Shown here piece by piece: positions 13,765-52,085 of a DNA stretch of 56,459 nucleotides. The DNA is from Lachnospiraceae bacterium (lineage in GTDB: Bacteria > Bacillota > Clostridia > Lachnospirales > Lachnospiraceae). The first letter of the stretch is position 1, and each line of letters opens with the position of its first letter. The stretch is from NCBI GenBank assembly GCA_910574745.1, contig CAJTCE010000026.1, forward strand, positions 1 to 56,459. The letters run 5' to 3'. Under the pieces are notes generated by a model. It saw only the letters and a program-made list of their open reading frames with translations, ran no database searches and was not told the DNA's origin. Position numbers and translations under genes: made by a program.

Positions 13765-14541
13765 TTATGCCTTTATATCAAAACTGGGGGCAGAAGCCGG
13801 CAATATGCCAAGGGTGGCCGCCATAATGCTTCGTGTCACACTTCTTACATCAGTCCCTGCAGCCGCCCTATGGAAGCTTCCCGTTTCTTTACTTTCCGCC
13901 GGCTTTTGGCTCCATTCTTTATAAGCTGCGCGCTCTTTGGCTTTCTTCTCCGCCAGCTTTTCCTCTTCTTCCTTCTTCTTTGCGCGCTTTTTGGAAAGCC
14001 TTGCTTCTTCAGCGCTTTTCTCCTTTGCCTTCCTCTCGGCGTTCTCCTTTGCTATTTTTCCATCAGGATCGTTGGTGCATCCGCTCATGCAGGTAATATT
14101 GCCATTATCATCAATAATATAAGCAGCGTAGGTGCAAACCGGGCTTCCCTGCATAGTTTTTGTATGATTCACAAGGGATTTTACACAGTCGGGAATTGCT
14201 TTTAAGTTTTCCTCCAGATACTTGGCTTTTGCCGGGTCATTCATACATTTCTTTAAAAATCCGCCTGACACCGATACCGTTGTAGGAACGCCCTGCATTG
14301 AAGTTGTCCCGCTATTCATATAGCCGTATTTCCCCTGTAAATACCCGGAATACTCATTTACAGTACTAAATCCTGTCTTAATCTGCTCCGTTTTGGTTAC
14401 GCCGGGCGTTGAAGTCTTCAGTTCTACCGTGCTTGTTGTCACATTGCCGTCTTTTGTACTTCCACCGACCTTTGCACTGTCCGCTTTTTTTGCTGCGCCT
14501 GCATAGCCTGCAGCATAAGTGTTCCTAATCTCCATTGACAT
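13765..14541 (-). CDS. Leaderless DUF6033-like protein with FDxKA tail
   Basis: 258 residues, no signal peptide or membrane segment. The N-terminus, MEIRNTYAAGYAG, recalls the MSVNGIG/GY starts elsewhere in the window. The middle contains EYSGYLQGKYGYM and VSVSGGFLKKCMNDPAKAKYLE, the layout I associate from memory with the Lachnospiraceae family DUF6033. Residues about 170-215 are a highly charged helix of Lys/Glu/Arg (coiled-coil type). The last residues, PSFDIKA, match the FDxKA tail of three other proteins here. It is the last gene of an operon with the two PPC-like proteins. Function unknown. Confidence 0.7.
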   Translation of the reverse strand: MSMEIRNTYAAGYAGAAKKADSAKVGGSTKDGNVTTSTVELKTSTPGVTKTEQIKTGFSTVNEYSGYLQGKYGYMNSGTTSMQGVPTTVSVSGGFLKKCMNDPAKAKYLEENLKAIPDCVKSLVNHTKTMQGSPVCTYAAYIIDDNGNITCMSGCTNDPDGKIAKENAERKAKEKSAEEARLSKKRAKKKEEEEKLAEKKAKERAAYKEWSQKPAESKETGSFHRAAAGTDVRSVTRSIMAATLGILPASAPSFDIKA

Positions 14542-14563
14542 ACAATATCCCTCCCATTCATGA

Positions 14564-16072
14564 TCAGGCTTTCAATCCCGTTAGTTCATTCCCGTTCCAG
14601 CCGAAATTCACGTGATACTCCGGTATTTCTCCGTAAACTTCTTTGTATTGTAAAATATCATACAGCATCTGCTGATAATCAAAAAAGCTGCTTGTGCTGT
14701 CCGCCCCGTTTATCAGGGACGCCACCTTATAGGGAAGTCCTGCAATTTCCTCATTCACAATTTTCCCTGTCTGCTCCCTTTTGATCGATAAATCCTCTAC
14801 CGAAATCTTCCCGTCTGAGGCTTTTCCGAGAAAACGGTTACATTCTGCCACATAGCCGGCAATCCTGTATTGGCAATCCGTCATCGCCTCTGTCTCCCCG
14901 GAGTTTTCCAGATACACGTTTTGGAAACTGTCCCGGTGCGCCGTAACATAATCCTCCACCGCCTTTTTCTCATCCCCGTACAGACCGCTTATTTGGGCAT
15001 TGCCAAAAGGAGGCAGATAAATTTCAAAGCTTTTATCCGAAAGACCCATGGATTCCAGAAAGTCAGCAAATTCCTGCTCCAGCCCTTGCTTTCTTTTCAA
15101 GACCTCCTCCTGATAGATTTCATTCTGGTTGCCATAAATAGCGATATAAGCCCCTTCCGCTTCTGACAGGATTTTACCGTTTTTCTCTTCCTCCAGCAAT
15201 TCGGAAGCGCTCATGGCGCCTTTGTATTTTAATTCTTCCGGCAGCTCCTCATACTGCTTTTGATGAAGTCTGTTAATTCCCTCCGCATTTGCCGCCTCAC
15301 GCTTTTCTTTTGCCGCCAGGCCCATTTCATAACGCTCCTCCGGAGTTGTCTGTACCGCCGTTCCCTCTTTCAGTCGCTCCAACCATTCAACGGTTTCCTG
15401 TGGCATATCCCCTTGTGAAAAAGTAAGCTTATAGTTTCCCTCCACACTGTTATCCGAATCATGCTGGCTTATTTTTATGACAAAGTTCCGGCAGCCGGAC
15501 CAGTCGCATGGTATGGTAAGGGTTTTCGTCCCGTCCCCATTGGAAACTGCCATTCCTACCTGATTTCCCTGATCATCATAAACGACCAAATCATAGTCGG
15601 CGCCTTCCGGCATTTCCATATTCACAATCACGGGTCTCCTGCTAAGGATCTGCGATGAGGTGTCCACATGAAAGTAGTCCACATCACAGGGACTATTCAT
15701 AGTTCCGCTGAAATAACTGTCCGCATTTCTCCCCGCCACAAGAAGGGAAAGGTCAAAGGTTCCCTGGCTGTAGCGGTCTATATCCGCAATCTGTGTTGCC
15801 CCGGTGGCGGCATTGCGGTATACATCATTGGCACCGTCATTCTTTTCCGTTAAAACCACTGCCTCATTTAAGTCCTTCATTTTGCTCTGAAGCCTTTGCC
15901 CCGGTATCTGGACACAGGTCTGTTTCTTTCTCGGAAGCTGCAAAACCCTATCGGTAAGGCGGGAAACCCTTCCCTCTTTTACCGCCCGGTCCACGCTCTT
16001 TTGAAGATGACTTAAGGAAGGCGCCTGCAGCTCATATGTAGAATAAACTTTTGATGGTAAATTGATACTCAT
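14564..16072 (-). CDS. Leaderless PPC-domain-like protein, copy 2
   Basis: 502 residues without a signal peptide. Residues about 110-230 read as a PPC-type beta-sandwich: SGTMNSPCDVDYFHVD, then EGADYDLVVYDDQGNQVG and a closing NYKLTFSQ. The remaining 270 residues are helical, with RLHQKQYEELPEELKYKGAMS followed by LLEEEKNGKILSEAEGAYI. The same blocks occur in the same order in the neighbour at 16130-17668, so the two are paralogues of nearly equal length. It ends GLKA, possibly related to the xKA tails. PPC domains are normally secreted, so their presence in a leaderless protein suggests another export route (inference). Confidence 0.72.
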   Translation of the reverse strand: MSINLPSKVYSTYELQAPSLSHLQKSVDRAVKEGRVSRLTDRVLQLPRKKQTCVQIPGQRLQSKMKDLNEAVVLTEKNDGANDVYRNAATGATQIADIDRYSQGTFDLSLLVAGRNADSYFSGTMNSPCDVDYFHVDTSSQILSRRPVIVNMEMPEGADYDLVVYDDQGNQVGMAVSNGDGTKTLTIPCDWSGCRNFVIKISQHDSDNSVEGNYKLTFSQGDMPQETVEWLERLKEGTAVQTTPEERYEMGLAAKEKREAANAEGINRLHQKQYEELPEELKYKGAMSASELLEEEKNGKILSEAEGAYIAIYGNQNEIYQEEVLKRKQGLEQEFADFLESMGLSDKSFEIYLPPFGNAQISGLYGDEKKAVEDYVTAHRDSFQNVYLENSGETEAMTDCQYRIAGYVAECNRFLGKASDGKISVEDLSIKREQTGKIVNEEIAGLPYKVASLINGADSTSSFFDYQQMLYDILQYKEVYGEIPEYHVNFGWNGNELTGLKA

Positions 16073-16129
16073 TATTTCTTCCTCATTTCTATTACTGTTT
16101 TGTCATAATCTCAATCTCTGCCATATTAG

Positions 16130-17668
16130 CTATAAAACCTTTTTAAACTGATACTGGTACATATCCGAATACATATTGCCAAAGGACTTGGGAACAAACC
16201 GCTCATCCAGCGCTTCCATGTCCACTGCAAATCCACTGTCTTTTACCGAAAATCCCCCATCCTGAAACCGGAATTCCGAAGTAAAATCAGGAATGCCTAT
16301 ATCGCCGCTTATTCTCAGCTTTCCGATAATATTTACCAAAGCATCCCGCATCCGTTCTATTTTGGCATTGTCCTTCCCGTTGTTAATCAGACCTGCCGCC
16401 TTATCCGGCAATCCTCCTATTTTCCCGTTGGGTAAAAAATAAAGACTTTCAAGGGATATATCCATTCCCGTAATCCCCTTTAAATAACGCCGGACCTCCT
16501 GGACATCCGTAGCATACTGATAGGAATTGGAAGATAAGTCCGTCACACTGTCCGCAATACCGGTATAATAGCGGTACATTCTGTTACCGTATTTTTTTTC
16601 TATCAGCTTTTCCACCTGTCCTCTGACAGCCTCATCCTCTATGCCTTCCACGGTTACAGTGCCGTCGCTTCCGATCTTTACGCTCATTCCTTCCACTTCC
16701 TTTTCAGAAATGCCAAGGCCCTCCATTTCTTTTAAAAACTCTTTTGAAAAATCTTTTTTTAATTCTGCCTTCTGCCGTGCTTTTTCAAAATCCGCCAGAT
16801 TGGCAAAAATCTTCACATATTCCAGTTCCGCTTCGCTTAAAGCCTTTCCCTCCGCCATATCCTGCAAAAGCTCTTCCGCTGTCCGGTTTCCCCGATACTG
16901 CTTCTCCGGCGGCAGCGCTTCGAACTGTTTCTGATGAAGCTGCTTTAGCTCCTTTATGTAATTTTGTTCCGTTTCCTGTAAAACTGTATTATAACGGTCA
17001 AGATACTCTCTCCAGTTTTCATCCTTCCGGCTGTAAGCATTATGCAGCGCCCCAAACGCCTCTCTTATTGCATCCGTCTTTTCCTGTTCCTTGTTTTCGG
17101 AAACATGGAAGCTGATTTTATAAAAATCATCGGGGGATACTTCCTCTCCCTTTTCGTTTTCGATTTTGATGCAGTATTTTCCGGTTTTCGTATCCCAGTT
17201 GGGAATGCTTAAGGTTTTCCTGCCATCCTTGTCCCATTGCGCCTTTCCCACCTGATTTCCGTATTCGTCATACAGAGTAAGACTGTAATCGCACCCCTTT
17301 GGCAGGTCCATACGGACCTCCACATTAAAATAATTCTGTATAGTACGGTTATAAGGTATGGAAAAATGATAGAAATCCACATCATCTTTATCACTGAGGC
17401 TTCCCTTCAGACTACTGGTTTCATCCTGTATCAGAAATCCAAAATCCAGAAAAGCGCTGCCCTTATCCTGATCCGGCACCTCATAGGTGGTATGCTGATT
17501 TCGATAGGTATTATTGCTGCCAAGAGTACAGGTATCCTCCCGCAGCACCATATTTTCCCGTATTTTACCTTCAAAAAACGCCCTTCCCTGCTTTACGGTC
17601 ATAAGAAAAATAGGCTTTTCCCTGAAAGCCGCTCCCCACTGACTGCTATAGGTATTCGTTACTTCCAT
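16130..17668 (-). CDS. Leaderless PPC-domain-like protein, copy 1
   Basis: 512 residues, starting MEVTNTYSSQWG with GGAGGCGG upstream. The PPC-like core spans about 85-195: KGSLSDKDDVDFYHFS, LPKGCDYSLTLYDEYGNQVG, and FYKISFHV. The helical C-terminal part contains QLHQKQFEALPPEKQYRG and LLQDMAEGKALSEAELEYV, matching copy 2, and LPDKAAGLINN, matching LPYKVASLING there. No hydrophobic segment. First gene of a three-gene operon, 27 nt behind the GCCGATA promoter box. Confidence 0.72.
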   Translation of the reverse strand: MEVTNTYSSQWGAAFREKPIFLMTVKQGRAFFEGKIRENMVLREDTCTLGSNNTYRNQHTTYEVPDQDKGSAFLDFGFLIQDETSSLKGSLSDKDDVDFYHFSIPYNRTIQNYFNVEVRMDLPKGCDYSLTLYDEYGNQVGKAQWDKDGRKTLSIPNWDTKTGKYCIKIENEKGEEVSPDDFYKISFHVSENKEQEKTDAIREAFGALHNAYSRKDENWREYLDRYNTVLQETEQNYIKELKQLHQKQFEALPPEKQYRGNRTAEELLQDMAEGKALSEAELEYVKIFANLADFEKARQKAELKKDFSKEFLKEMEGLGISEKEVEGMSVKIGSDGTVTVEGIEDEAVRGQVEKLIEKKYGNRMYRYYTGIADSVTDLSSNSYQYATDVQEVRRYLKGITGMDISLESLYFLPNGKIGGLPDKAAGLINNGKDNAKIERMRDALVNIIGKLRISGDIGIPDFTSEFRFQDGGFSVKDSGFAVDMEALDERFVPKSFGNMYSDMYQYQFKKVL

Positions 17669-17694
17669 TCTATCATCCGCCTCCTTTTATTTTA

Positions 17695-17736
17695 TATCGG
17701 CAGATTTTTTTTGTATTCGGGCAGAATGTAACGAAA
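17695..17736 (-). promoter_or_regulatory. Promoter P1: GCCGATA box plus TTTCGTT box
   Basis: On the minus strand, TTTCGTTAC (box at 17736-17730) is followed exactly 28 nt later by GCCGATA (17701-17695) preceded by AAAATCT. GCCGATA matches the -10 of flagellar sigma-28 promoters (GCCGATAA); a TAAA -35 at the usual distance is not seen. The same arrangement with the same spacing occurs at 28148-28189. Confidence 0.6.
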
Positions 17737-17781
17737 CGACTTAAAATGGAAATAAAATTTTTTAACAAAGCAAATTTTCGA

Positions 17782-17875
17782 GATACGTCGGGTCAAGATA
17801 TGTCCAAGCTACGTCGGGTCGAGATACGTTTGAGATACGTTTGAGATACGTTTTCAGGATACGTTCAAGATACGT
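17782..17875. repeat. Array of eight GATACGT repeats with 11/13/15-nt spacing
   Basis: GATACGT or close variants (GATATGT, GCTACGT) start at 17782, 17797, 17808, 17823, 17834, 17845, 17858 and 17869. Steps are 11 nt, 13 nt, or 15 nt where CGGGTC is inserted. The array sits between ybaK and promoter P1. The 11-nt step is close to one helical turn, consistent with protein binding, but slippage is also possible. A GC-rich inverted repeat (CCGGCTG / CAGCCGG) lies just to its right near 17930-17952. Confidence 0.65.
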
Positions 17876-17965
17876 CCATAGATTTATCCTGCCAGGAATC
17901 CTGCTGTAGCAACAGAATGGCAGATCTGACCGGCTGTCAAAAAGCAGCCGGCTGTTTTCATTCAT

Positions 17966-18433
17966 TTAATATCCTTTACAGACATCCACCCAGCCTGCGT
18001 ATCCCGAATATTTTTCCATTTCCGGAATTGTAAGCTCTATGGCGCTGTTGGAGCTTCCGCAGGCGGGAAACACCGTATGGAAACGTTTCAGGGAAACATC
18101 CAGATATATGTCCACACCCTCGTTTACTCCAAAGGGACATACACCGCCTACGGCATGTCCTATGAGCGTTTCCACCTCTTCTAATGAAAGCATCTTTGCC
18201 TTCACGCCAAACTGCGCTTTATACTTTTGATTATCAATCTTTGCATCCCCTGCAGTTACAATCAACATACTATGACCGTCCACCATAAAAGAGAGCGTTT
18301 TCGCAATCCTCTGTGGTTCGCAGTGCAGGGCCTTTGCAGCAAGTTCTACCGTGGCGCTGGATACTTCAAATTCCTGAATTCTTTCCTCCATTCCGAATTT
18401 CTTAAAATATGTCTTTACCCTTTCTATTGACAT
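17966..18433 (-). CDS. ybaK: YbaK/EbsC-type aminoacyl-tRNA deacylase domain protein
   Basis: 155 residues covering the single YbaK/ProX editing domain. Landmarks: SSATVELAAKALHCEPQRIAKTLSF, VTAGDAKIDNQKYK (conserved Lys), and HAVGGVCPFGV (loop of the binding pocket). The C-terminus has FPACGSSNSAIELTI, also typical. Such proteins hydrolyse mischarged aminoacyl-tRNA in trans. The gene is last in a run with the three FDxKA-type genes, 60 nt after the first of these ends. Confidence 0.88.
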   Translation of the reverse strand: MSIERVKTYFKKFGMEERIQEFEVSSATVELAAKALHCEPQRIAKTLSFMVDGHSMLIVTAGDAKIDNQKYKAQFGVKAKMLSLEEVETLIGHAVGGVCPFGVNEGVDIYLDVSLKRFHTVFPACGSSNSAIELTIPEMEKYSGYAGWVDVCKGY

Positions 18434-18492
18434 TGATCTTTTCTCCTTTTTCTATACATATGACCAGAGTATTTTTCTATATTCTTCATATA

Positions 18493-19083
18493 TCATGCTC
18501 TTGCATCAAAGCTTCCCTGTATCGCCATTCCCTCCGCCATCCCGACAGCATCAAAACCGGCCGGGCTTCCGTTTTTCATCTCCTGCCTTTTTGCATGGTA
18601 GGCATTGTAATAAGTCGCTTTTAAAGCTCCATGTACTTCCGTTTCCGCTTTGGATTCTTTTTCATGCCAGCCCACGCCTGCGGTATAAGTCAGGATTTCA
18701 TCCCCGTTTTCATCATACACATGAATTGCGCTTCCCGTCCCTTCAGACTGAATCCGGGCTTCATACGGTTTGCCAAACAAAATACACAGCCACCTCTCAT
18801 CCGCATCTTTTATTTTCTGCAGATTCTCCATGCTGTCAGAGGCCATGGCCTGATTGATTTTTCCCATAAGCGCCGCCCTGTCAGGAGCCACCTTTGCAAC
18901 CTCGCTTTTGCGAAGGATGCTGAACTTATTTCCCATATATACATTTCGAGCCGCATCCTCTTTGGCATATTCCGCAATCTTCTCCTTAAGGGAATCCGAT
19001 AGCTTCCATTTTTTCTTCGATGCTGTTTTTCCTGTTGCCGTACATCCGATACGATCATTGATTGTTATTTTTTCAATTGCCAT
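18493..19083 (-). CDS. Leaderless hypothetical protein, FDARA tail
   Basis: 196 residues from MAIEKITINDRIG (19083). The open frame reaches further upstream, but this ATG follows the previous stop by one base and has AGAAAGG upstream. It contains APDRAALMGKINQAM, comparable to SPDRK in its two neighbours, and a beta-type stretch IHVYDENGDEILTYTAGVGW matching FYDKNGEMVATYSNKGW in the protein at 19788-20453. It ends GSFDARA, a variant of the FDxKA tail. No signal peptide. Third of three related genes. Confidence 0.7.
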   Translation of the reverse strand: MAIEKITINDRIGCTATGKTASKKKWKLSDSLKEKIAEYAKEDAARNVYMGNKFSILRKSEVAKVAPDRAALMGKINQAMASDSMENLQKIKDADERWLCILFGKPYEARIQSEGTGSAIHVYDENGDEILTYTAGVGWHEKESKAETEVHGALKATYYNAYHAKRQEMKNGSPAGFDAVGMAEGMAIQGSFDARA

Positions 19084-19084
19084 T

Positions 19085-19747
19085 TTATGCCTTTCTGTCA
19101 AATTGGGGTCTGTCCTCCAGATAATCCGGCAGCTCCAAAAAACTGTCTTCCAAATTGTTTTTTGTTTCACGATACTCTTTCCAGTAAATATCATAGAACT
19201 CATTTTTCCTGTCAAGCTCTGCCGGCGTCATTTCATAACTCCATCCGGCTCCGGTATTCCGTAATACCTTCACACCCTGGCATTCTATCTCTGCACCATA
19301 ACCGCCGCTGCTTAAAATCGGACAGGTCAGCATTCCGCCGCCTGCCAGGGCAAATTTCTTTTCGGCAAGTCTGCTCTCTCCATCGTGCGTATCCCTCAGA
19401 AAGTCAAGTAACGTCAATTCTCCAATCCCTTTACATTTTTGATTGCCGCTTTGCTTTTTCATGACACTTTTTGCCTGTTGGTATAACAGCTTCCTATCCG
19501 GCGAAACATCGGACAGATATTCCGCCCTTAACTGCAAAACCTGTCTGGCAATCTGCTCTGATTCCGGCTTACCTTCCGCCATAGCCGCCCTTTTTGCCAA
19601 TTCCTTAATGCTGCTGACAAGCTCTGCCTTTGTCTTATTGGTTTTCCCTGCTGAGGGAATGTATGACCAGTTGGGTTCCCCTGCTTTCGTTGTAGCAGTT
19701 GTAACAGCCCTTATGCTGCCGACAGAACCATTTAGTAAAACGCCCAT
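19085..19747 (-). CDS. Leaderless hypothetical protein, FDRKA tail
   Basis: 220 residues, N-terminus MGVLLNGSVGSIRAV, no hydrophobic signal. Contains YLSDVSPDRKLLYQQAKSVM, equivalent to YTSEVSPDRKEIITSGLKAV in the upstream neighbour. The last 17 residues, LPDYLEDRPQFDRKA, are nearly identical to that neighbour's end. A VKVLRNTGAGWSYEM strand pair corresponds to the NKGW/GVGW segments of its relatives. Family name unknown to me. Middle gene of the three-gene set. Confidence 0.72.
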   Translation of the reverse strand: MGVLLNGSVGSIRAVTTATTKAGEPNWSYIPSAGKTNKTKAELVSSIKELAKRAAMAEGKPESEQIARQVLQLRAEYLSDVSPDRKLLYQQAKSVMKKQSGNQKCKGIGELTLLDFLRDTHDGESRLAEKKFALAGGGMLTCPILSSGGYGAEIECQGVKVLRNTGAGWSYEMTPAELDRKNEFYDIYWKEYRETKNNLEDSFLELPDYLEDRPQFDRKA

Positions 19748-19787
19748 GAAAATTTACCTCCCAACAACTGAATTTTCCATTTTCTTT

Positions 19788-20453
19788 TCATGCCTTCCAA
19801 TCAAATTCAGGTTTATCTTCCAGATAATCCGGCAAATCTGCAAGCATACCGGTTTGAGCTGTCATATCCGCTCTTCGTGCTCCGTTTCCCGCCATTTCAC
19901 TGTCCGTTAAGGGCTTTCCGTTTTTTGCATCTCTCCATGCCGCATTATAAATCAAGCACATTCCGGTCTGGCGGGCGGCCTCTGCATTGGTTGTATACAT
20001 CGTCCAGCCTTTGTTGGAATAAGTTGCCACCATTTCCCCGTTTTTATCATAAAATTCGATATATTCGCTTTCTCCAACAGGCTGTTTTTTATACCGGACC
20101 TCTCCCTCAAGCAAAGTGGCAATAAAGTCTATGGGTTTTAATGCGTTTTGTCCGTTCCTTGCAACCGCCTTCAGACCGGAAGTGATAATTTCCTTTCTGT
20201 CCGGCGATACCTCAGACGTATATTGCTTCATCAGCTTATTAAAGCCTTCCGACTGATTTTGAAACTGTCCTCTCGCAAAATCTGCATAGGCCTGTTCTAT
20301 GATTTTCTTTTTATATTCTTCGTTGCTGATTCCGCTTTTTTGTCTGGAAAACACATAGGCGTCGTTGAAATCGGGCAGATGTATCCCGCCTATACTGCCT
20401 GTTTTGGAAAAGTATCTCTGCTGTAGCGAAATGTTGGATGAATGAACCTGCAT
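19788..20453 (-). CDS. Leaderless hypothetical protein, FDWKA tail
   Basis: 221 residues, starting MQVHSSNISLQQRYF with AAGGAGAAG upstream. Contains YTSEVSPDRKEI (about 76-87), IEFYDKNGEMVATYSNKGW (about 130-148) and the tail LPDYLEDKPEFDWKA. No signal peptide. It is the first of the three paralogues. A weaker GCCGATA-like sequence (GTCCGAAAA) lies about 140 nt upstream and is only a tentative promoter. Confidence 0.72.
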   Translation of the reverse strand: MQVHSSNISLQQRYFSKTGSIGGIHLPDFNDAYVFSRQKSGISNEEYKKKIIEQAYADFARGQFQNQSEGFNKLMKQYTSEVSPDRKEIITSGLKAVARNGQNALKPIDFIATLLEGEVRYKKQPVGESEYIEFYDKNGEMVATYSNKGWTMYTTNAEAARQTGMCLIYNAAWRDAKNGKPLTDSEMAGNGARRADMTAQTGMLADLPDYLEDKPEFDWKA

Positions 20454-26593: not shown

Positions 26594-27415
26594 TCACTGT
26601 TGTAATAAAGCATGTTTTAAAAGATGCTCCTGATATAAACGCAAATTCTCCTGCTCCTGTATTTTTCTCTTTTCAGCCCCCTCTTCCAATATCTGTATGT
26701 ATTTCACGCGCCTTCTTCTTTTTTCGGCCTGCTCAGCCTCAAACTGTTCCTGCTCTTCCTTGGTGGGACCGGTAATTCTCCCGGGGCTGGTAACAGTACA
26801 GTTCCGCACATTTCCTTCTTCATCCAAATCGAAAACATAGCTTTTACCCGCCTGAAATTCTGCCACATTAGCGCCATAGGAGGCCGCCACCGTATTATCC
26901 CAGCGGTCATAATCTTCTTTCCATTCCTGCACCTTTGCCATAATCTTTCTGGCATAGGCGGGGTCTGCATCCATTTTCTGCTGCAGGCTTTCCGGTATAA
27001 GGATTGCGATTCTCCCGGAACCTATGCTGCTGTAATTCCTCTGTAAATCGCTGCGGGTCTGGGGCGGATTCGCACCAACAGGCTTCCAGTCATTTAATGC
27101 ATCTGCACTTGTGTTTTTATTAAAATACTCCCAGAAGGGAAAGTCGTTTCTCTGCCAGTTCCCTGAGGAAATATCGGCATTGCCCACATGGGTTATGACA
27201 TCATACATGGGGAAGGCATCCACAAAGTTGGTCGCTCCCACCCTTCCCGTATTGTATGCTTTGCTGATGGTCGAAATATAGTCCTTAGCCCCCGCCATCT
27301 TATTTGCATAAGCCGCCCGAAAGGCATTTGCAGCATTTTTATCCGTTATTTTACTCAGACGTTCCTCATAGGACTCGCCCATATAGTCTCTTGTACCGAT
27401 TCCGTTTACGCTCAT
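26594..27415 (-). CDS. Leaderless MSVNGIG-type protein with C-terminal coiled coil
   Basis: 273 residues from MSVNGIGTRDYMGESYEERL (27415), set by GGAGGAAG just upstream; the frame extends further without a site. The N-terminal motif MSVNGIG is shared with four other genes in the window. Middle: YISTISKAYNTGRVG and RIAILIPESLQQKMDADPAYARKIMAKVQEW, recalling the Pro-Ala/Lys-helix region of DUF6033-type proteins. From about 215 the chain is a charged helix (EEQEQFEAEQAEKRRRR). No signal peptide or membrane segment. It follows the gene at 27515-28048 by 99 nt, probably in one operon. Confidence 0.72.
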   Translation of the reverse strand: MSVNGIGTRDYMGESYEERLSKITDKNAANAFRAAYANKMAGAKDYISTISKAYNTGRVGATNFVDAFPMYDVITHVGNADISSGNWQRNDFPFWEYFNKNTSADALNDWKPVGANPPQTRSDLQRNYSSIGSGRIAILIPESLQQKMDADPAYARKIMAKVQEWKEDYDRWDNTVAASYGANVAEFQAGKSYVFDLDEEGNVRNCTVTSPGRITGPTKEEQEQFEAEQAEKRRRRVKYIQILEEGAEKRKIQEQENLRLYQEHLLKHALLQQ

Positions 27416-27514: not shown

Positions 27515-28048
27515 CTACAGGATGTCCTTTCCCGCAAAACCTTCATTTACCAACGCACCCAGTTTATCCAGAAATGACTGGTAGAACATCCTTTCCTTCA
27601 TCTGCTGCCTCTGCACTTCAATGCTCTTTAGACCTTCCGGTACAAGCGGGTGGTCTAAATCATAAAGCGCCTGCTCCGTTGCCCGGATTGCTGACTGCAC
27701 CGTGCTTCCGAGAATATCATTTTCCCCACCGGTGCCTTTCATTACCTTATTAAGCCGCTGTACCATCATTTGGGATATGTGTGTCAGCATACCGTTCCTT
27801 CCGTTCATCCCAAGCCCGTTAACGCCTGTTTCCTTTGCTGCCTCCATCCAGGCCTTCTTTACCTCTTTTGGTGCATTCGCTCCCACAGACGCAAAAGCTT
27901 TTTCGTCATATCCCGTCTCAGGCTGTCCGGCTTTTTCTGCCACTGCCTCCATAAATCCCGTATCCCCGGATGAGACATTTTTTCCCGCCCTCTTTACCGG
28001 GTACCCTGTTACCGGATAGCTTGCTGTTCTTATTCCCATTACGCTCAT
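27515..28048 (-). CDS. Leaderless MSVNGIG-type small protein
   Basis: 177 residues, starting MSVMGIRTASYPVTGYPVKR, with GGAGGATTGGGAAAATG before the start. It is a clear paralogue of the protein at 49724-50221: both contain DEKAF, APxEVKxAWMxAAKE, HISQMMVQRLNK, DILGSTVxSAIxAT, ALYDLxHP and a C-terminal FYxxFLxKL. All-helical, no signal peptide. First gene behind promoter P2. The C-terminal extension VNEGFAGKDIL is absent in the paralogue. Function unknown. Confidence 0.75.
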   Translation of the reverse strand: MSVMGIRTASYPVTGYPVKRAGKNVSSGDTGFMEAVAEKAGQPETGYDEKAFASVGANAPKEVKKAWMEAAKETGVNGLGMNGRNGMLTHISQMMVQRLNKVMKGTGGENDILGSTVQSAIRATEQALYDLDHPLVPEGLKSIEVQRQQMKERMFYQSFLDKLGALVNEGFAGKDIL

Positions 28049-28147
28049 TTTCCCAATCCTCCATTGTTGCCGAATATTTTAACCCTGACAATCTTCTCTC
28101 ATTCGGAACCGTCCCCATTCCCCACAATCATGTTCCCTCATTTTATT

Positions 28148-28210
28148 TATCGGCAGATTTTCATTATTTCATGGGTAAAGGAAACGAAAAGCACATGAAA
28201 TGTAACGAAA
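28148..28210 (-). promoter_or_regulatory. Promoter P2: GCCGATA box plus two TTTCGTT boxes
   Basis: GCCGATA (28154-28148, preceded by AAAATCT) lies exactly 28 nt from TTTCGTT (28189-28183), the same geometry as P1. A second TTTCGTTACAT copy (28210-28200) sits 21 bp further upstream, about two helical turns, and is identical over 11 bp to the P1 box. The first gene starts about 100 nt downstream. Confidence 0.6.
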
Positions 28211-31421: not shown

Positions 31422-32357
31422 ATGGGGATCGGAAGCATAGCATCAACAAACAGTATGTCAGGTCTGCAGCTGACTGCGGTAGATTCAAAAAGCAAAAAAT
31501 TTCAAAATGAAATTACAAACGCACAGCAGCAGATGCAGAAGCTATCTTCAACGCAAGAACTTTCTGTTATGGAAAAAAACACTGAGCGTCAGAAGCTTCA
31601 GAAAGAAATATCCTCTCTCAATGCAGAGTTGAAGCGGCATCAGGAAGAACTCAGCAGGTCGCAAAAAAGAGAAGCCATGATGGCGGAGCTGCGGGAAGAT
31701 AAAGAACTGACAAAAGATGAAAAATCAGAAGACAAAATACAGGCAAAAGAAACGTCCTTAAATACGTCAGACGAAAAAAATCTACCAGCCGACGCTAAGC
31801 AGACAGGCCAGCAGGGAAATGTCATAGTCAAAAACAACGATGGCACTGTTATCTTAAAGGAATCGGGCAGGCAGACTGATGAAACCACAGAAAAAGGCAC
31901 TGTCGAAAAAGAAGCAAAAGCCTCAGACAGTGATACAGCTGTAGATGCCGGACTATCCCACAAAAAAGTGCATGCAATGGTATCAGCAGATTCTTCCGTA
32001 AAACAGGCAAATCGTCAGGGAACTATCATAGCAAAAACCAGAGACGGCATTGCTATTTTAAAGGGGGAAATGCGCCAGGATGAGAAGCGCGGCGTAGATA
32101 CAGGGAAAAATCAGGCCGAGCTGGAAAAAATGGAGAAAAAAGAACAGCGGGCAGTGGCATTCCAGTTCTCTACATTAGGCGAAGCAAATAACACCATGAA
32201 ATCAGCCGCAGAAACTAACGCAACCGGAACAAAAGATAATGCACAGATTGACGCAGGAAATAACGGTTTTAATAATCCCTTTTTTAACGCTATGAATGCA
32301 GCACAGGAAGACGGATGGGCATCACAACAGAGATTTTTCGTTTCTCTGGGCCATTAA
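31422..32357 (+). CDS. FlxA-like protein
   Basis: 311 residues, one of few plus-strand genes. The N-terminus, MGIGSIASTNSMSGLQ, leads into a heptad-rich helix: IQ-type NEITNAQQQMQKLSSTQEL and LQKEISSLNAELKRHQEELSRSQ (about 28-85), the FlxA-like family signature. FlxA in E. coli is a sigma-28-dependent, flagellum-linked gene of unclear function. The rest is polar and repeats: GNVIVKNNDGTVILKESGRQTDE-like and GTIIAKTRDGIAILKGEMRQDE-like blocks (about 128 and 203). It lacks a signal peptide. A GGGAGG site precedes the ATG. No sigma-28 box was found upstream of this gene. Confidence 0.75.
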   Translation: MGIGSIASTNSMSGLQLTAVDSKSKKFQNEITNAQQQMQKLSSTQELSVMEKNTERQKLQKEISSLNAELKRHQEELSRSQKREAMMAELREDKELTKDEKSEDKIQAKETSLNTSDEKNLPADAKQTGQQGNVIVKNNDGTVILKESGRQTDETTEKGTVEKEAKASDSDTAVDAGLSHKKVHAMVSADSSVKQANRQGTIIAKTRDGIAILKGEMRQDEKRGVDTGKNQAELEKMEKKEQRAVAFQFSTLGEANNTMKSAAETNATGTKDNAQIDAGNNGFNNPFFNAMNAAQEDGWASQQRFFVSLGH

Positions 32358-47386: not shown

Positions 47387-47422
47387 TCTGATTATACTAA
47401 GGCTTGGTTAGTTTTTGATTAG
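47387..47422 (-). promoter_or_regulatory. Autoregulated promoter of the response regulator
   Basis: CTAATC-AAAAA-CTAACC (47422-47406) followed 9 nt later by TATAAT on the minus strand. Same half-sites, same 11-bp period and same 9-nt distance as at the ABC promoter. It overlaps the stop codon of the upstream HTH remnant. Confidence 0.7.
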
Positions 47423-47596
47423 TTTTTCTGATTTGCTTCGCTTATCAGCAGGCTTTTTGGCATCTTTAGGAATCAGCCATACTCGGTTGATATTCAAAAC
47501 ACCCTCAATACGATTTTCCTTGCATTACCGCTGCACCCGCCGAAGTGATACATTCCATTTTTCTGCCGCTTCCTGTGCTGTCATATAATCAAACAT
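47408..47596 (-). pseudogene. Excisionase-like HTH protein with an ochre stop at codon 24
   Basis: ATG 47596 (TTAGGAGG upstream) reads MFDYMTAQEAAEKWNVSLRR, VQR, then TAA (47527-47525). It continues in frame with CKENRIEGVLNINRVWLIPKDAKKP to a stop at 47408. TAQEAAEKWNVSxRRVQxYCxxxRIxG is the usual sequence of small HTH proteins of Firmicute mobile elements; a Tyr codon is expected at the stop. A single base change inactivated it. Confidence 0.75.
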
Positions 47597-47674
47597 TTCT
47601 GACCTCCTAAAATCGTACTGTATTTATTATGGCCGTTTAGACGAACTGTATCAAGTGTGCAAATATGAACTTTT

Positions 47675-47715
47675 ATCTCTTGCAGCAGGATATTTCATAT
47701 CCTATTATAAGAGAT
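47675..47715. other. Hairpin at an element junction
   Basis: Nested inverted repeat: ATCTCTT (47675-47681) / AAGAGAT (47709-47715) outside, AGGATAT / ATATCCT around TTC inside. It sits between the HTH remnant's promoter area and the truncated DUF2800 gene, possibly a terminator or recombination site. Confidence 0.5.
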
Positions 47716-47725
47716 TTCACATTGT

Positions 47726-47878
47726 TTAATTAGAAGCCAGGGCATGGGCGGCGGTGCCTTCCTCGGCATAGACGCTGCCGCCCGCTTCATCCTGAAATTT
47801 CTCCTCCAGCCTTGCGGACGGCGTGCAGGAGAGCCACCGCCTGTAGGAGGATGCGGAAAGAAGCGCGTGTTTCCCCAT
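47726..47878 (-). pseudogene. DUF2800 (phage nuclease-like) N-terminal fragment
   Basis: 50 residues, MGKHALLSASSYRRWLSCTP then SARLEEKF and EEGTAAHALASN, then a stop. MGKHALLSASSxxRWLxCTPSARLEE is the start of phage/ICE DUF2800 proteins, PD-(D/E)XK nuclease relatives of about 380 residues. The gene is cut at 47726, a likely recombination joint. The ATG overlaps the end of the reading frame that follows the DUF4406 gene. Confidence 0.7.
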
Positions 47879-47985
47879 CACAGCACCTGCGTTTTCTGCG
47901 CCATCAGCGCACGGATGCCCTCCAGCGTGGCAGGGGATTCCTGCTGTACTTCCGGCTGTGCCAAGGTTTCCGATTTTTCCGCTTT

Positions 47986-48324
47986 CTATGCTTTCACAGC
48001 TTTCTCCTTCATGCCGCCCTCCGTTTCCTTGAATATGATTGTCTTTCCCTGCGCCGTGGCGGATGCGATCTCCGCCGCCATCCCTTCGGTGGCTTCCCCG
48101 AACACCCACATCTCGTCACACAAGGCAAGCAGTTCCATCCCCATAGAGATGTCGAGCCGCCTCTCTTCCTCTGTCTCCTCATTTAAGAACTGTGGGAATA
48201 AAAGGTGCGGCGCAATGGGGAGATGCCCTTCCTCACACGCCATGCGGCAGTAGGCCGCCGCTTTCCTTGCATTCCCTTCCATGTCGCCGCGGAAGGGGCT
48301 GCAGATAAAAACCTTCTTACGCAT
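47986..48324 (-). CDS. DUF4406-like nucleoside-processing-fold protein
   Basis: 112 residues from MRKKVFICSPFRGDMEGNARK; this start replaces a longer open frame. KVFICSPFRG, a helix with CEEGHLPIAPHLLFPQFL, ERRLDISMGMELLALCDEMWVFG and EGMAAEIASATAQGKTI match phage-borne DUF4406/DUF7768 proteins (nucleoside 2-deoxyribosyltransferase-like fold). After the amber stop, the same frame continues with KAEKSETLAQPEVQQESP to AQKTQVL, so the stop may be a CAG-to-TAG change shortening a 148-residue protein. Leftover of a phage or ICE with the DUF2800 fragment. Confidence 0.7.
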   Translation of the reverse strand: MRKKVFICSPFRGDMEGNARKAAAYCRMACEEGHLPIAPHLLFPQFLNEETEEERRLDISMGMELLALCDEMWVFGEATEGMAAEIASATAQGKTIIFKETEGGMKEKAVKA

Positions 48325-48388
48325 CCGTCCCTGCCGGTTCCCTTTTATCGTTTGTGCATTATTGGTTTTCTTCCATATCAAAAATTCA

Positions 48389-48814
48389 TTACCCCAAAAA
48401 GTCTAAGAACTTTTTGTAGAATATCAATTCCTGTCCTGCAAAATCCGGGTTTGCCGCCGGAGTCAGCGGATTCTCCAACCTATGTATGATTTTTTCAGCC
48501 ATTGACTTTGCGAAGCCTACACTGTCACCCAAAAATGTGGAACTCAAACCCTGCTGCCCGCTTTCAACGTGCAGTACCAATGCCGTTGAAATGCGGTTCA
48601 TCGGAAAAGGATTTATCCCTGTTTCTGCAAGCGCCTTATCCCATGCCTGCATCACTTCATCGGAACTCTCCGGCCTGAAAGCATCCGTTTCTTTCTTTGT
48701 TGCAGCTTTGTTTATTGCATCAGCAAAATTCCCTCCTGCCACATTCCTTTCCGTCCTTCTTGTTTCATACCCTGCCGCCGGGTATCCTGCTGCTCCTATT
48801 CCGTTTACATTCAT
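48389..48814 (-). CDS. Leaderless MSVNGIG-type protein
   Basis: 141 residues from MNVNGIGAAGYPAAGYETRR (GGAGG 10 nt upstream of 48814; the frame is open further upstream through the leader repeat). Pattern as in the relatives: N-terminal NGIGxxGYxxxGYxxRR, then GGNFADAINKAA, SDEVMQAWDKALAETGINPF and the C-terminal FYKKFLDFLG. It is shorter and more divergent than the two other members of this subtype, lacking the HISQMMVQRLNK block. No signal peptide. Confidence 0.72.
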   Translation of the reverse strand: MNVNGIGAAGYPAAGYETRRTERNVAGGNFADAINKAATKKETDAFRPESSDEVMQAWDKALAETGINPFPMNRISTALVLHVESGQQGLSSTFLGDSVGFAKSMAEKIIHRLENPLTPAANPDFAGQELIFYKKFLDFLG

Positions 48815-48950
48815 TTTTCTTAATCCTCCATTTTCTTTGTCATAGCAGCCCCCCTGTCGTTCAGAGCCGCTCCTGCTCCCTTGTAAAAAGTCCGAGCAGT
48901 TCATTGCCTCCATGCATATATACCTGTTAACCTCCCCGCCCAAATTCCAT
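48815..48950 (-). repeat. Conserved 5' leader, copy 1
   Basis: About 136 nt directly before the gene at 48389-48814, alignable nearly without gaps to 51558-51698. Shared pieces include GCATGGAGG-AATGAAC-GCTCGGACTT and CGGCTCTGAACGACAG-GGGGCTGCTAT, then ATGGAGGATT before the start codon. It contains CTGAACGACAG, part of an inverted repeat. A short form occurs at 50222-50262. Confidence 0.7.
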
Positions 48951-48978
48951 ACCGGCCTTTACCTCCTCTCACTGATCT

Positions 48979-49026
48979 GCCGGGGATGCCTGCCCTTCCT
49001 TGTCGGACTGTGGCTTATGGGGGATG
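48979..49026 (-). repeat. IPHKPQ coding repeat, copy 1
   Basis: 48-bp sequence shared with 49670-49718. On the minus strand it reads YIPHKPQSDKEGQASPADQ, in frame with and directly beyond the stop of the gene at 49044. The second copy reads HIPDKPQPDKAGQASPA. Confidence 0.65.
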
Positions 49027-49043
49027 TATTTTTTTATCCAAAA

Positions 49044-49487
49044 TTAGCCCGTTGCTTTCCTCCAGAACAAGCCCTCTGAAAACGCTATCCTCTCCATAAT
49101 GGACTGAGCTTTTTCTGACGGATTATACACTGACAGATTTAAGCAATCCCAATCAAAAACCAGCAACGCATCTTCCTCCACAAACAGGACATTCAGCGTG
49201 CCCGAATGGTTCCCCATAATTTCACAGACTGCTTCCTCTATCATTTTCGGTAAAGGACGGTCACCCCATCCATTCCACAGAATAGATACATGGTAATAAC
49301 ACATCAGTTTCAAAATAATGGCAACAAACCTGTCTTTCAGCCCTGTATGTTTATCGCTGTTCAGCAGATAATACTCCACATCAAAAAACTGCCCGCCATT
49401 ATCCGGTTCCACCTGCTCCGGAAGATAATCCATAATAAAACATGGCTTCTCCAGCAATGCATTGATTCGCTCCATTTTACTTTCCAT
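49044..49487 (-). CDS. Hypothetical 147-residue protein, maybe shortened by a stop
   Basis: 147 residues, no signal peptide: KPCFIMDYLPEQVEPDNGGQF, FVAIILKLMCYYHVSILWNGWGDRPLP, VLFVEEDALLVFDWDCLNLSVYNP. Not recognised. Compact alpha/beta proteins of this size beside putative exported genes are often immunity proteins, but there is no direct support. After the TAA the frame stays open for 24 codons (FWIKKYIPHKPQSDKEG...), so the original protein was probably about 171 residues; a Tyr codon would restore it. It starts 10 nt after the 40-residue gene. Confidence 0.6.
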   Translation of the reverse strand: MESKMERINALLEKPCFIMDYLPEQVEPDNGGQFFDVEYYLLNSDKHTGLKDRFVAIILKLMCYYHVSILWNGWGDRPLPKMIEEAVCEIMGNHSGTLNVLFVEEDALLVFDWDCLNLSVYNPSEKAQSIMERIAFSEGLFWRKATG

Positions 49488-49497
49488 CTTGTACCAC

Positions 49498-49620
49498 CTA
49501 CTGACTTATATGTTCAGAATCAATATTACATTTTTTCTTTCGGTTTATCACTTTGTTTACCCACAAATCAACAAAAATTTCTGCAATATCTGCAATCATC
49601 TCTATGATAAAATCAAACAT
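49498..49620 (-). CDS. 40-residue amphipathic small protein
   Basis: ATG 49620 is preceded by GGAGGAGTGTAAG, a very good site. The product, MFDFIIEMIADIAEIFVDLW then VNKVINRKKK, is an acidic hydrophobic helix with a basic tail, like small membrane-active or antisense-toxin-like peptides. It lies between the MSVNGIG gene at 49724 and the 147-residue gene in the same direction. It has no known family. The upstream frame is open through the IPHKPQ repeat, but no start codon there is convincing. Confidence 0.55.
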   Translation of the reverse strand: MFDFIIEMIADIAEIFVDLWVNKVINRKKKCNIDSEHISQ

Positions 49621-49669
49621 CTTACACTCCTCCACATTCTTGTTATACGATTCCCCAATCTGCCGGAAC

Positions 49670-49718
49670 GCCGGGGATGCCTGCCCTGCCTTGTCAGGCT
49701 GTGGCTTATCGGGGATAT
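49670..49718 (-). repeat. IPHKPQ coding repeat, copy 2
   Basis: 49-bp near-identical copy, 6 nt beyond the stop of the gene at 49724-50221 and one base out of its frame. It continues openly into SPAFRQIGESYNKNVEECK and the small protein start. Looks like the 3' end of a lost relative of the 147-residue gene. Confidence 0.6.
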
Positions 49719-49723
49719 GCGTC

Positions 49724-50221
49724 TTATAACTTCTCCAATTTTTCCAAAAACGCCCTATAAAATTCCCCTTCTTTGATGTGGGCCTGTTGAACCTCTATGC
49801 TCCTGGGCGTATATACCCTTGGATGCTCCAAATCGTACAGCGCCTCTTTCGTTGCCTGAATCGCAGATTCCACCGTGCTTCCAAGGATGTCAAAATTCTC
49901 CGTTTCACCCTTAAGCTGTTTATTAAGCCGCTGCACCATCATCTGCGATATGTGGCTCATCATCCCGTTTCCCCGGATTCCCATGCCATTCGCATTTACT
50001 TCTTTCGCCGCATCCATCCACGCATCCTTCACTTCCTGCGGGGCACCCCGACCGACCATCTCAAAGGCTTTCTCGTCCTGGTCGGCTGCTCTACCCTGTG
50101 CCGCCTTTTCTTCCACCGTTTCCATGAATCCCACCGTTCCGGGTTCCGCACTTCTTTCCATCTTCCTTGCCGTGTATCCTGTCATCTGATATCCCGCTGT
50201 CCCTATTCCATTTACACTCAT
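49724..50221 (-). CDS. Leaderless MSVNGIG-type protein
   Basis: 165 residues from MSVNGIGTAGYQMTGYTARK (ATG 50221; GGAGG 10 nt upstream). Paralogue of 27515-28048 over its full length (DEKAFEMVGRGAPQEVKDAW, MMSHISQMMVQRLNK, FDILGSTVESAIQATKEAL, YDLEHP, FYRAFLEKLEKL). Predicted helical, soluble. Placed in the LytTR-kinase cluster, whereas its paralogue is under promoter P2, so different regulation is likely. Confidence 0.75.
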   Translation of the reverse strand: MSVNGIGTAGYQMTGYTARKMERSAEPGTVGFMETVEEKAAQGRAADQDEKAFEMVGRGAPQEVKDAWMDAAKEVNANGMGIRGNGMMSHISQMMVQRLNKQLKGETENFDILGSTVESAIQATKEALYDLEHPRVYTPRSIEVQQAHIKEGEFYRAFLEKLEKL

Positions 50222-50321
50222 CTCCAAATGTCCTCCATTATTTTTTATTGTAGCCCCTCTGTCAGTCAGACCATATCTGTTCTTGCACAGCTACCAGTAT
50301 TCTTAAAGCTGCCCACGCTTT

Positions 50322-51557
50322 CTAAGCCTCCGTTGAAGTATTCGACACTTCATCCGATACTGTATCCATTCCGGTATCATCAGATGGCATATTATTATCG
50401 GTATCATGCTCTGAATTTTCATTTGGCACTTCTGTCGGCTTGGAAATTTCCAAACTCATTGTAGTTTCCATTCCACCAATACTCATTGTCATTACAAGCA
50501 CCCTTGAACCATCTGGCTTAACAATAATATCTGTCTTTGATTCAGATTCCTGTTTATCTACCTGCTCCAATTCCTCATCTGATAAGATTCTTTCAAATTC
50601 CAGTCCTCTTTCTTCAAAATATTTCTCCCACTTTGAATATTCCTTGATGTCTTTCGCTTCTATATACCCCTCCGCCATTGCATTCATAATTTCCATATAC
50701 ATATGCGTTGCCCCTATTGGATACATGACAGCCCAGCTCTTGGATGGATTGGCATTATCCATATAGTTCATCCCATTACAGGTAATCATCATGATTCCAT
50801 CTTCTGTCCTGACAGCCTGACCTGCTACTTCGGCCTGTGCAAATCCCATTGCCACACTTTCTGATTTTATAAGGTTAGGATACTTTTCCTTATACATATC
50901 CGCCAGTTCCCGCAATTTCCCCATCTGCTGCTCATCGCTGACCATGAGCCATGAACCGCCGCCTTCGTTCCCTTTGATTTTCAGGCACTCTATTCCTGTA
51001 AACGCATTCACCTCTATCGTGTATTTTTCATTTAAGGATGATGTAGGAATACCGTCTGCATTATCGACATTTAAAAACTGTGCCAATGTCTCCATAAGCT
51101 CACTGCCAGCGGGCACGACATCCATCAGCCCTCCCCTTGGGTCAGTCGCCACAATGTAATTTTTACCCGAATTGCCATCTGTTTGTACCGATGTATTATT
51201 GGGATCAAACTCAAATGATTTATCAAGTTTCTTATCATATATACGCCAATATCCAGATATCTCATCAGACGGTTCAATTAGATACCGCTCACTCCCTACT
51301 TTTTCAACTGGCTGCTTTGTTTCTGCCTTAAGATTATTTGTATGAAATCTTGAACCCATACTGCCCATTATGGAATATGCATCATATGCAGAAAACCTTT
51401 CTCCTGCTTTTGAATAAATGAAATTTTTACCCAAACCCTCTCTCACCATATCTGCATCTGCCATCCTGCCTGCAAAGCCCGTTCCTAAACCATTCCTCTG
51501 TGCCTTTCCCATTTCACGCCATGCGGGAAAACCCACCCCTATTCCATTTACGCTCAT
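50322..51557 (-). CDS. Large leaderless MSVNGIG-type protein
   Basis: 411 residues, starting MSVNGIGVGFPAWREMGKAQRN with ATGGAGGATT upstream. The middle (about 75-330) is mixed alpha/beta: RYLIEPSDEISGYWRIYDKK, IVATDPRGGLMDVVPAGSEL, TIEVNAFTGIECLKIKG and GGSWLMVSDEQQMGKL. Relatives of this type I recall only as hypothetical proteins of Lachnospiraceae. The last 45 residues are a Ser/Thr/Asp-rich tail (NNMPSDDTGMDTVSDEV). No signal peptide or membrane segment. Preceded by leader copy 2. Confidence 0.7.
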   Translation of the reverse strand: MSVNGIGVGFPAWREMGKAQRNGLGTGFAGRMADADMVREGLGKNFIYSKAGERFSAYDAYSIMGSMGSRFHTNNLKAETKQPVEKVGSERYLIEPSDEISGYWRIYDKKLDKSFEFDPNNTSVQTDGNSGKNYIVATDPRGGLMDVVPAGSELMETLAQFLNVDNADGIPTSSLNEKYTIEVNAFTGIECLKIKGNEGGGSWLMVSDEQQMGKLRELADMYKEKYPNLIKSESVAMGFAQAEVAGQAVRTEDGIMMITCNGMNYMDNANPSKSWAVMYPIGATHMYMEIMNAMAEGYIEAKDIKEYSKWEKYFEERGLEFERILSDEELEQVDKQESESKTDIIVKPDGSRVLVMTMSIGGMETTMSLEISKPTEVPNENSEHDTDNNMPSDDTGMDTVSDEVSNTSTEA

Positions 51558-51698
51558 TTTTCAAATCCTCCATTGTCATCAATTATTTTATAGCAGCCCC
51601 TCTGTCGTTCAGAGCCGCATCCGCTCCCTCATAATAAGTCCGAGCGGTTCATTACCTCCATGCAGACATACCGCCTAACTTCCCCTGTCAAACTTCAT
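51558..51698 (-). repeat. Conserved 5' leader, copy 2
   Basis: About 141 nt matching 48815-48950. Both copies have the stem CTCTG-TCGTT-CAGAG or a variant just upstream of GGGGCTGCTAT, where a -10 would fall (TATAAA here). Translations in one frame are also similar (MHGGNELLGLFTRE / LHGGNEPLGLIMRE, each ended by TGA), so a leader peptide is possible. Confidence 0.7.
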
Positions 51699-51702
51699 GA
51701 CA

Positions 51703-51744
51703 AACACCCCCTTTCGCTGAAATTACTGCAATTACTTTTTTCAC
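51703..51744 (-). pseudogene. ParA-type ATPase N-terminal scrap
   Basis: GTG at 51744 reads VKKVIAVISAKGGV, the start of a ParA/Soj P-loop (KGGVGKTT in full proteins), then leaves the family at TGT CAT where leader copy 2 begins. Marks a deletion joint between an ICE-type segment and the MSVNGIG cluster. Confidence 0.55.
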
Positions 51745-51867
51745 TCCGCACTCCCTTTATGCGGTTCCGCCGAAATGATCTCCCCCTGCACGTTGGAGTC
51801 ATCCGAATCCCCGTCCAGCTCATCTTCGTCAAGCTGCGGCTCCACCGCTATGGGGTCAGCTTGTTTG
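51741..51867 (-). pseudogene. C-terminal scrap of an ICE-type protein
   Basis: Open minus frame KQADPIAVEPQLDEDELDGD, DSNVQGEIISAEPHKGSAE, ending with TGA overlapping the ParA GTG. Acidic tail of an unidentified protein normally preceding parA. It overlaps the end of the gene at 51848 in another frame, so the cluster gene is probably fused to this remnant. Confidence 0.45.
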
Positions 51868-52085
51868 AAATAGAGCTGTCATAGGTAAAGCCGCTATAAT
51901 TTGGTGGCTGCGGAACAACCATGTCCCCCGCCCATGCTGATAAGCCGGATTTTTCCGCCGCATCCTTTCCTTCCGCAGCTTTCTGCACCTCCTCCACAAA
52001 ATTCCCTGTGCCTGCCACCCTTCTGCTACTGTTTGTGTAGGCATACGGATTAACCCCCAATGCCGCTTACATTACCGATGCTCAT
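51848..52085 (-). pseudogene. Broken MSVNGIG-type gene coupled to the kinase gene
   Basis: ATG 52085 reads MSIGNVSGIGG then stops. One base less in the G5 run (C5 at 52054-52058 on plus) gives MSIGNVSGIGVNPYAYTNSS, RRVAGTGNFVEEVQKAAEGKD, an N-terminus of the leaderless family with the conserved RR...GNFxEEV. The ATG lies inside the stop of the kinase gene (ATGA), so expression is coupled. The 3' end (SISNKLTP) runs into an ICE scrap, so the C-terminal part is lost. Confidence 0.65.

Follow-up and report, generated by a model that had tools for sequence, protein, structure and literature searches.

The 56,459-nucleotide stretch of a Lachnospiraceae bacterium genome analysed here (the window; contig C26, CAJTCE010000026.1, of a 4.35 Mb assembly in 106 contigs that is 99.6% complete) harbours a set of genes encoding proteins that share the N-terminal start MSVNGIG. 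The features of these proteins and of their DUF6033 relatives suggest that they form part of a flagellar (sigma-28) regulon of the Lachnospiraceae and that their probable way out of the cell is the flagellar type III gate, export being predicted from sequence. Three lines of evidence carry this reading: the co-occurrence of DUF6033 with the flagellar export gate, the sigma-28-like promoters, and the properties of the shared start. The first-pass annotation of the stretch had guessed that the start is an export or sorting signal, and these lines of evidence support that guess; the start is predicted to be disordered, and a further element resembles the known flagellar gate-recognition motif.

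Five intact minus-strand genes of the window fit M-[SN]-V-[NM]-G-I, as described in the first-pass annotation, which had also listed the broken copy starting at 52085. Designated by their start positions, they begin with MSVNGIGTRDY (27415), MSVMGIRTASY (28048), MNVNGIGAAGY (48814), MSVNGIGTAGY (50221) and MSVNGIGVGF (51557). The wider pattern M-[SNAGMITD]-[VIT]-[NSM]-G-[IV] has five matches when all six frames of the window are read, whereas 20 second-order Markov copies gave 0.05 on average, and the DNA pattern for M-x-V-N-G-I-G was found at four places in the 4.35 Mb genome (three in the window and one on contig C39; none for the reversed control). The copy at 52085 reads MSIGNVSGIGG and then a stop; the reading continues after a change of frame (GVNPYAYTNSSRR...GNFVEEVQKAAE) and terminates prematurely. 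GY followed by RR or RK, also proposed as part of the shared start, is present in 28048, 48814 and 50221 and absent from the other motif genes. The source genome has more motif copies on contigs C39 and C67 and DUF6033 genes on C2, C17, C18 and C67. In the window the system extends past the 13765..52085 span, up to the regulator genes ending at 54210.

The window motif proteins have three families of bodies: 27415; 28048 and 50221, with 48814 as a weak third member; and 51557. The earlier statement that the proteins differ beyond the start was correct with one reservation: 27415 and 51557 are separate families, while the bodies of 28048 and 50221 are 62% identical over 119 aa; 48814 is linked to both only via a stretch of 21 aa. 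When other genomes were included, 19 motif-type or related proteins sorted into eight body families. The proteins encoded at 26594-27415 and 13765-14541 exceeded the 25-bit cut-off of the Pfam family DUF6033 (PF19498), while the Pfam profile scan gave no DUF6033 match for the 27515, 48389, 49724 and 50322 proteins, and the other scanned motif proteins matched no Pfam or NCBIfam family above cut-off. DUF6033 has no function in Pfam. No paper naming it was found in a literature search whose coverage leaves out most subscription journals, and no publication describing the motif protein set was found, judged on titles and the starts of abstracts.

The link between DUF6033 and the flagellum is strong. 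We analysed 250 Lachnospiraceae genomes whose genera differ for 249 of the 250; p-values were calculated without kinship correction. DUF6033 was present in 81 genomes and FlhA in 129: both in 80, DUF6033 alone in one, FlhA alone in 49 and neither in 120 (p=1.1e-29). Expressed otherwise, FlhA was present in 80/81 DUF6033-positive genomes vs. 49/169 DUF6033-negative genomes. This is the co-occurrence that had been proposed as a check of the export guess, and relatives of the motif proteins are found almost only where the flagellar export gate is present. Of 291 genomes sampled across the class, 15 had DUF6033; FlhA was present in 14 of these 15 and in 12 of the 12 above cut-off (113/291 for FlhA overall). 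The MSVNGIG profile matched from position 1 in 11 of the 250 genomes, ten of them with full FlhA; the remaining one, G174, has an FlhA fragment containing stops and no FliP. Ten more of the 21 genomes with a profile match were set aside, as the match did not begin at position 1 (four with FlhA, six without). Six of these ten matches correspond to stretch 16-39 or 16-40 of a frame of about 700 aa and were taken as another protein. In G511, which belongs to another family, a DUF6033 gene with the start MAITGINNTY and a promoter scoring 10.5 is located roughly 5 kb beyond FlhA and follows fliA; in G225 the DUF6033 gene adjoins FliW-, FlgL-, FlgK- and FlgN-looking genes, judged by eye.

The sigma-28/flagellar promoter consensus for Lachnospiraceae is TAAA-N14-17-CCGATAT (PMC3720852), and TAAA-N14-16-GCCGATAT is present upstream of many DUF6033 genes. 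In a first set (one of 30, L048, dropped), 13 of 29 DUF6033 genes scored at least 9, compared to 1.5% of Markov copies. A second set, from a separate scan of 80 loci in named or metagenome-assembled genomes, includes some genes overlapping the first set; eight loci were dropped (no recognised gene or less than 150 nt upstream), and 38 of the 72 scorable DUF6033 genes scored at least 9 vs. 12/375 neighbours (p=9e-25). Most of these 12 neighbours are other small families with flagellar-type starts, chiefly MRITTQMLNETAKRTG. The small family starting MRITTQMLNETAKRTGIP... repeatedly has strong sigma-28-like promoters adjoining DUF6033 genes (L129, L142, L151, L157, L160, L176, L181 and L197; also L208, L223 and L226) and is probably a further flagellar-regulon protein. 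Response-regulator and BlaI relatives at motif arrays scored at least 8.5 in 13/23 cases vs. 26/284 other genes there, a count in which some gene starts, set by a ribosome-site rule, are wrong (L016, L081, L083, L085, L218). Three operon heads of the window (17668, 28048 and 54210) have sigma-28-like sites. Judged by these predicted sites, many of the genes have the promoter type expected of members of the FliA regulon.

The start of the proteins is predicted to be unfolded and shows no Sec signal. A hydrophobic core in the first 45 residues, as detected by a simple Kyte-Doolittle rule, was found in none of the 76 collected proteins vs. 143/595 controls, which agrees with the earlier observation that signal peptides are lacking; the N-termini are rich in Ser, Asn, Gly and Ala and poor in cysteine. 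AlphaFold2 predicted residues 1-35 of a canonical DUF6033 protein with pLDDT below 50 (alignment of 70 sequences), and the same was obtained for the 50221 protein at residues 1-32 and 34-42 with only three sequences. The start is outside any confidently predicted fold, and the possibility that it is part of a conserved cytoplasmic domain, which had been raised as a ground for rejecting the export guess, was not borne out. Starts of the type M-x-[VIT]-[NS]-G-[IV] were present in 12/79 array proteins, 11/72 canonical DUF6033 proteins and 0/595 other genes of the same loci.

In Salmonella, early flagellar subunits, studied with FlgD, need N-terminal small non-polar residues and a gate-recognition motif (FLTLL, residues 36-40 of FlgD), and the spacing between the two must be at least 19 residues and is best at 24 or more (eLife 2022, PMC8983047). 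The small non-polar residues of the window starts are V3 and I6. An F at residue 28-32 is common to all of the 18 MSVNGIG-type proteins, and in 13 of them it is followed by V, I or M four positions later. A matrix for this F motif was trained on 57 Lachnospiraceae FliE, FliK and TIGR02530 proteins, and it detected the held-out families FlgB (18/19) and FlgC (14/18). The MSVNGIG set scored above 119 controls (p=2e-7) and above its own shuffles (p=6e-8), and a score of at least 3 was reached by 7/18 of the set, 8/119 controls and 139/3600 shuffles; these 18 proteins, like the 76 collected proteins, were picked by hand or by start pattern. Among array proteins chosen by script, 14/79 scored at least 4 vs. 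17/595 other genes. A FlgM-like signal was also considered for the MSVNGIG set and rejected: a matrix of 17 of 20 FlgM N-termini (the divergent L104-L106 were dropped) told the 76 proteins apart from 242 controls (p=2.5e-7), yet gave no separation from shuffled versions of the same proteins (p=0.16). Only seven of the 76 reached 2 on this matrix, all of DUF6033 or MQITRDN type, while the window MSVNGIG starts scored -8 or less; none of the six window motif genes put through the Pfam scan has the FlgM domain (PF04316). Signals of more than one kind may exist, because the DUF6033 class is without the F motif and only a few proteins are FlgM-like.

The canonical DUF6033 gene stands separately with its own promoter, whereas the motif genes form arrays, often with regulators. 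Among 33 array loci (13 selected for hits and 20 from divergent DUF6033 hits), 32 contain a DUF6033 or motif protein, and 21 of these 32 have a LytTR, GHKL, BlaI or BlaR1-type (M56) relative in the same gene run, compared to only 1/74 canonical DUF6033 loci. In the window, the GHKL kinase and the LytTR regulator stand upstream of the 48389-51557 array (Table 1). In locus L080 (genome G184, 2824-10999), seven different proteins, including MSIYGIGASGY and MNIGSIGYTGY, follow one regulator-kinase pair. An array family with SLxDYAxIKNGSYGKL is common to several arrays (L207 4755-5507, L220 4462-5214, L221 2780-3520), and FlxA-like genes lie within the same arrays (31422 in the window; L207, L220 and L243, judged by eye). 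The 109-nt leader of the window has two possible hairpins and partial copies upstream of 50221 and of C39:25412, and it gave no Rfam family at gathering score in the window. Its core, GGCTCTGAACGAC, was found in 12/243 loci, 11 from the source genome (some overlapping) and one from G163.

Table 1. Features of the window related to the MSVNGIG and DUF6033 genes.
Feature	Position	Strand	Evidence and remarks
LytTR response regulator, first gene of operon C	53506..54210	-	Pfam LytTR 75.3 bits and Response_reg 60.5 bits, both above cut-off
Sigma-28-like promoter of operon C, TAAA-N14-TCCGATAC	54253..54278	-	Score 9.0; 50 bp upstream of the GTG start
GHKL (AgrC-like) sensor histidine kinase	52082..53494	-	Pfam HATPase_c_5 (GHKL) 78.2 bits, above cut-off
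Broken MSISNVSG-type motif protein copy	51848..52085	-	Intact relatives in L075 and L081
MSVNGIG protein, 411 aa, body family 3, F-A-G-R-M at residue 28	50322..51557	-	Relatives in G163 and G047
MSVNGIG protein, 165 aa, F-M-E-T-V at residue 32	49724..50221	-	Residues 1-32 and 34-42 with pLDDT <50
MNVNGIG protein, 141 aa, F-A-D-A-I at residue 30	48389..48814	-	Open reading frame and motif windows
Conserved 109-nt leader upstream of 51557	51590..51698	-	Second copy 48842-48950 (82% identical); shorter relative 50243-50270
MSVMGIR protein, 177 aa, F-M-E-A-V at residue 32	27515..28048	-	Open reading frame and body comparison
Sigma-28-like -10 (GCCGATAA)	28147..28154	-	Score 8.25; 106 bp upstream of 28048; -35 poor
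MSVNGIG protein, 273 aa, DUF6033 member	26594..27415	-	PF19498 30.1 bits
DUF6033 protein of operon A (MSMEIRNTYAAGY)	13765..14541	-	PF19498 31.2 bits
Two more operon A proteins (MSINLPSKVYSTY, MEVTNTYSSQWG)	14564..17668	-	Open reading frames; no Pfam family above cut-off
Sigma-28-like -10 (GCCGATAT)	17694..17701	-	Score 9.0; 33 bp upstream of 17668; -35 poor
Three small proteins, relatives in motif arrays L077, L081 and L017 (by eye)	18493..20453	-	No sigma-28-like site above 8.0
FlxA-like protein, MGIGSIAS start, F-Q-N-E-I at residue 27	31422..32357	+	Pfam FlxA 23.4 bits, below cut-off 26.3

Several observations weigh against export of a sigma-28 regulon through the flagellar gate. Timing is the clearest difficulty: expression of sigma-28 genes normally follows the switch of the gate to late substrates, whereas F-x-x-x-hydrophobic is the motif of early rod and hook subunits. 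Proteins of the early class are expressed before hook completion and not under sigma-28, and the genes studied here have sigma-28-like promoters; cells that continually start new flagella could use both the early motif and sigma-28 timing. In the window, only 3/14 upstream regions score 8.25 or more, two of them with a poor -35 box; the remaining 11 do not exceed 8.0. With these scores and with NCCGATA present at 50 places, sigma-28 control could not be established from the window by itself. The F motif is replaced by F-Y-P-Q-K in 3/18 MSVNGIG-type proteins, and the matrix fails on held-out FlgD (1/20). The number of MSVNGIG proteins reaching 3 varies with the training set (13/18 without FliE, 3/18 without FliK, 8/18 without TIGR02530), and the p-values of the F motif are too good because the sets of 18 and 79 proteins include paralogues. 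Among DUF6033 and other operon proteins only 3/58 reach 3, so that the F-motif signal is not common to the whole regulon. One of the 250 genomes, G235, has DUF6033 and neither FlhA nor FliP; its DUF6033 gene is at C38 (L242 5317-5961) in an assembly with 5% contamination, and the reason is either loss of the flagella, gaps in the assembly or a foreign contig. Finally, DUF6033-like genes in L239 and L241 adjoin a maturation system for ribosomally synthesised and post-translationally modified peptides (RiPPs), with no scored sigma-28 site. In L241 (G415, 5021-15368), with five tandem-type copies, and in L239 (G274, 6209-11798), they lie around a Cys-rich peptide radical SAM maturase (CcpM, TIGR04068), TIGR04066 and a subtilisin-like protease, possibly reflecting another use of the DUF6033 family.

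The promoters and the co-occurrence with FlhA fit equally well with sigma-28 regulon members that act inside the cell as regulators, chaperones or motor/chemotaxis accessories, the start being a docking peptide for a cytoplasmic partner. In favour of an intracellular role, the bodies contain lysine/glutamate-rich helices, and the early-type F motif conflicts with sigma-28 timing. The same start is, however, found on eight unrelated body families, which an address tag would explain more easily; exported subunits have a similar F motif, and the composition of the N-termini (Ser/Asn/Gly/Ala-rich and cysteine-poor) also points outwards. We regard an intracellular role as rather unlikely.

Other ways out of the cell, namely type VII secretion, ABC export, phage-like particles or lysis, would be compatible with the absence of a visible Sec signal and with the RiPP maturation genes around the DUF6033-like genes of L241. 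The source genome also carries the type VII ATPase EssC above cut-off, but across the 250 genomes EssC (57 above cut-off; 23/81 DUF6033-positive vs. 34/169 negative) shows no association with DUF6033 (p=0.15), in contrast to FlhA (p=1e-29), and, judged on EssC as the rival export machine compared, such a route seems very unlikely to us. The general Pfam scan gave no WXG100 or LXG match among the window genes, although no dedicated test was made for these or for a YxxxD/E signal. Slightly less credible still is that the shared start reflects mere recent duplication, in which promoter, leader and first codons were copied onto different genes with no sorting role. Duplication would fit the 82% identity, over 109 nt, between the leaders of 48814 and 51557 and, by eye, the position of many paralogues on C39 and C67 near transposase-like genes; by contrast, the M-x-[VIT]-[NS]-G-[IV] starts of the 11 canonical DUF6033 genes belong to other species and come without the leader.

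The motif proteins share with the early flagellar subunits FlgD, FlgE, FliE and FliK (PMC8983047) a small non-polar N-terminus, predicted disorder and the lack of a Sec signal, and most of them have a candidate F-x-x-x-hydrophobic stretch some 24-30 residues on. They differ from them in having no homology to any flagellar part and in their sigma-28-like promoters, and the hydrophobic residue at +3 that is typical of Lachnospiraceae FliE and FliK is mostly absent. FlgM is sigma-28-driven and exported. A short polar N-terminus and a sigma-28-like promoter are common to FlgM and the motif proteins, but the set scores no better on the FlgM matrix than its own shuffles. The FliA-dependent flxA of E. 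coli is described in PMC4183435 as having no obvious motility role. FlxA (PF14282) is comparable as a sigma-28 regulon protein without known flagellar function whose relatives share the arrays, although the bodies of the motif proteins differ from the FlxA family. Non-flagellar cargo is exported by flagella in the cases of V. cholerae MakA and Campylobacter FlaC (PMC6123715, PMC4863622). Like the motif proteins, this cargo lacks a Sec signal and passes the flagellar channel, a passage that is predicted here from sequence; MakA and FlaC are single Gram-negative cases, whereas the motif proteins are a broad Gram-positive set with its own regulators.

If the proteins are exported by the flagellar gate, sigma-28 would switch their operons on in cells that build flagella. 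The start would provide the small non-polar export signal, the F-x-x-x-hydrophobic stretch would dock at the FlhB C-domain, and the protein would then be threaded out unfolded through the gate, with the disordered start first. More speculatively, the GHKL kinase/LytTR or BlaR1-type/BlaI pair might sense an outside signal and tune the operon. That the pair reads the cargo itself is speculation, based on the analogy with AgrC-type kinases. Extending this, the arrays might be flagellum-coupled signalling cassettes, in which sigma-28-made cargo is released by the gate and read by the regulator pair, so that cells measure flagellar export or kin. Such cassettes would go beyond FlgM in coupling feedback to secretion, with messages that are diversified and interchangeable; we consider this unlikely.

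Should export through the gate be correct, the flagella of motile gut Lachnospiraceae would double as a general secretion machine for a large and so far unstudied protein family, whose address tag would be recognisable in the sequence. This would give a function to DUF6033, a concrete list of candidate extracellular proteins in abundant commensals, and a test bed for the export signals of Gram-positive flagella. A regulator-linked, broad set of cargo in Gram-positive gut bacteria would extend the flagellar export known from single proteins of Gram-negative bacteria.

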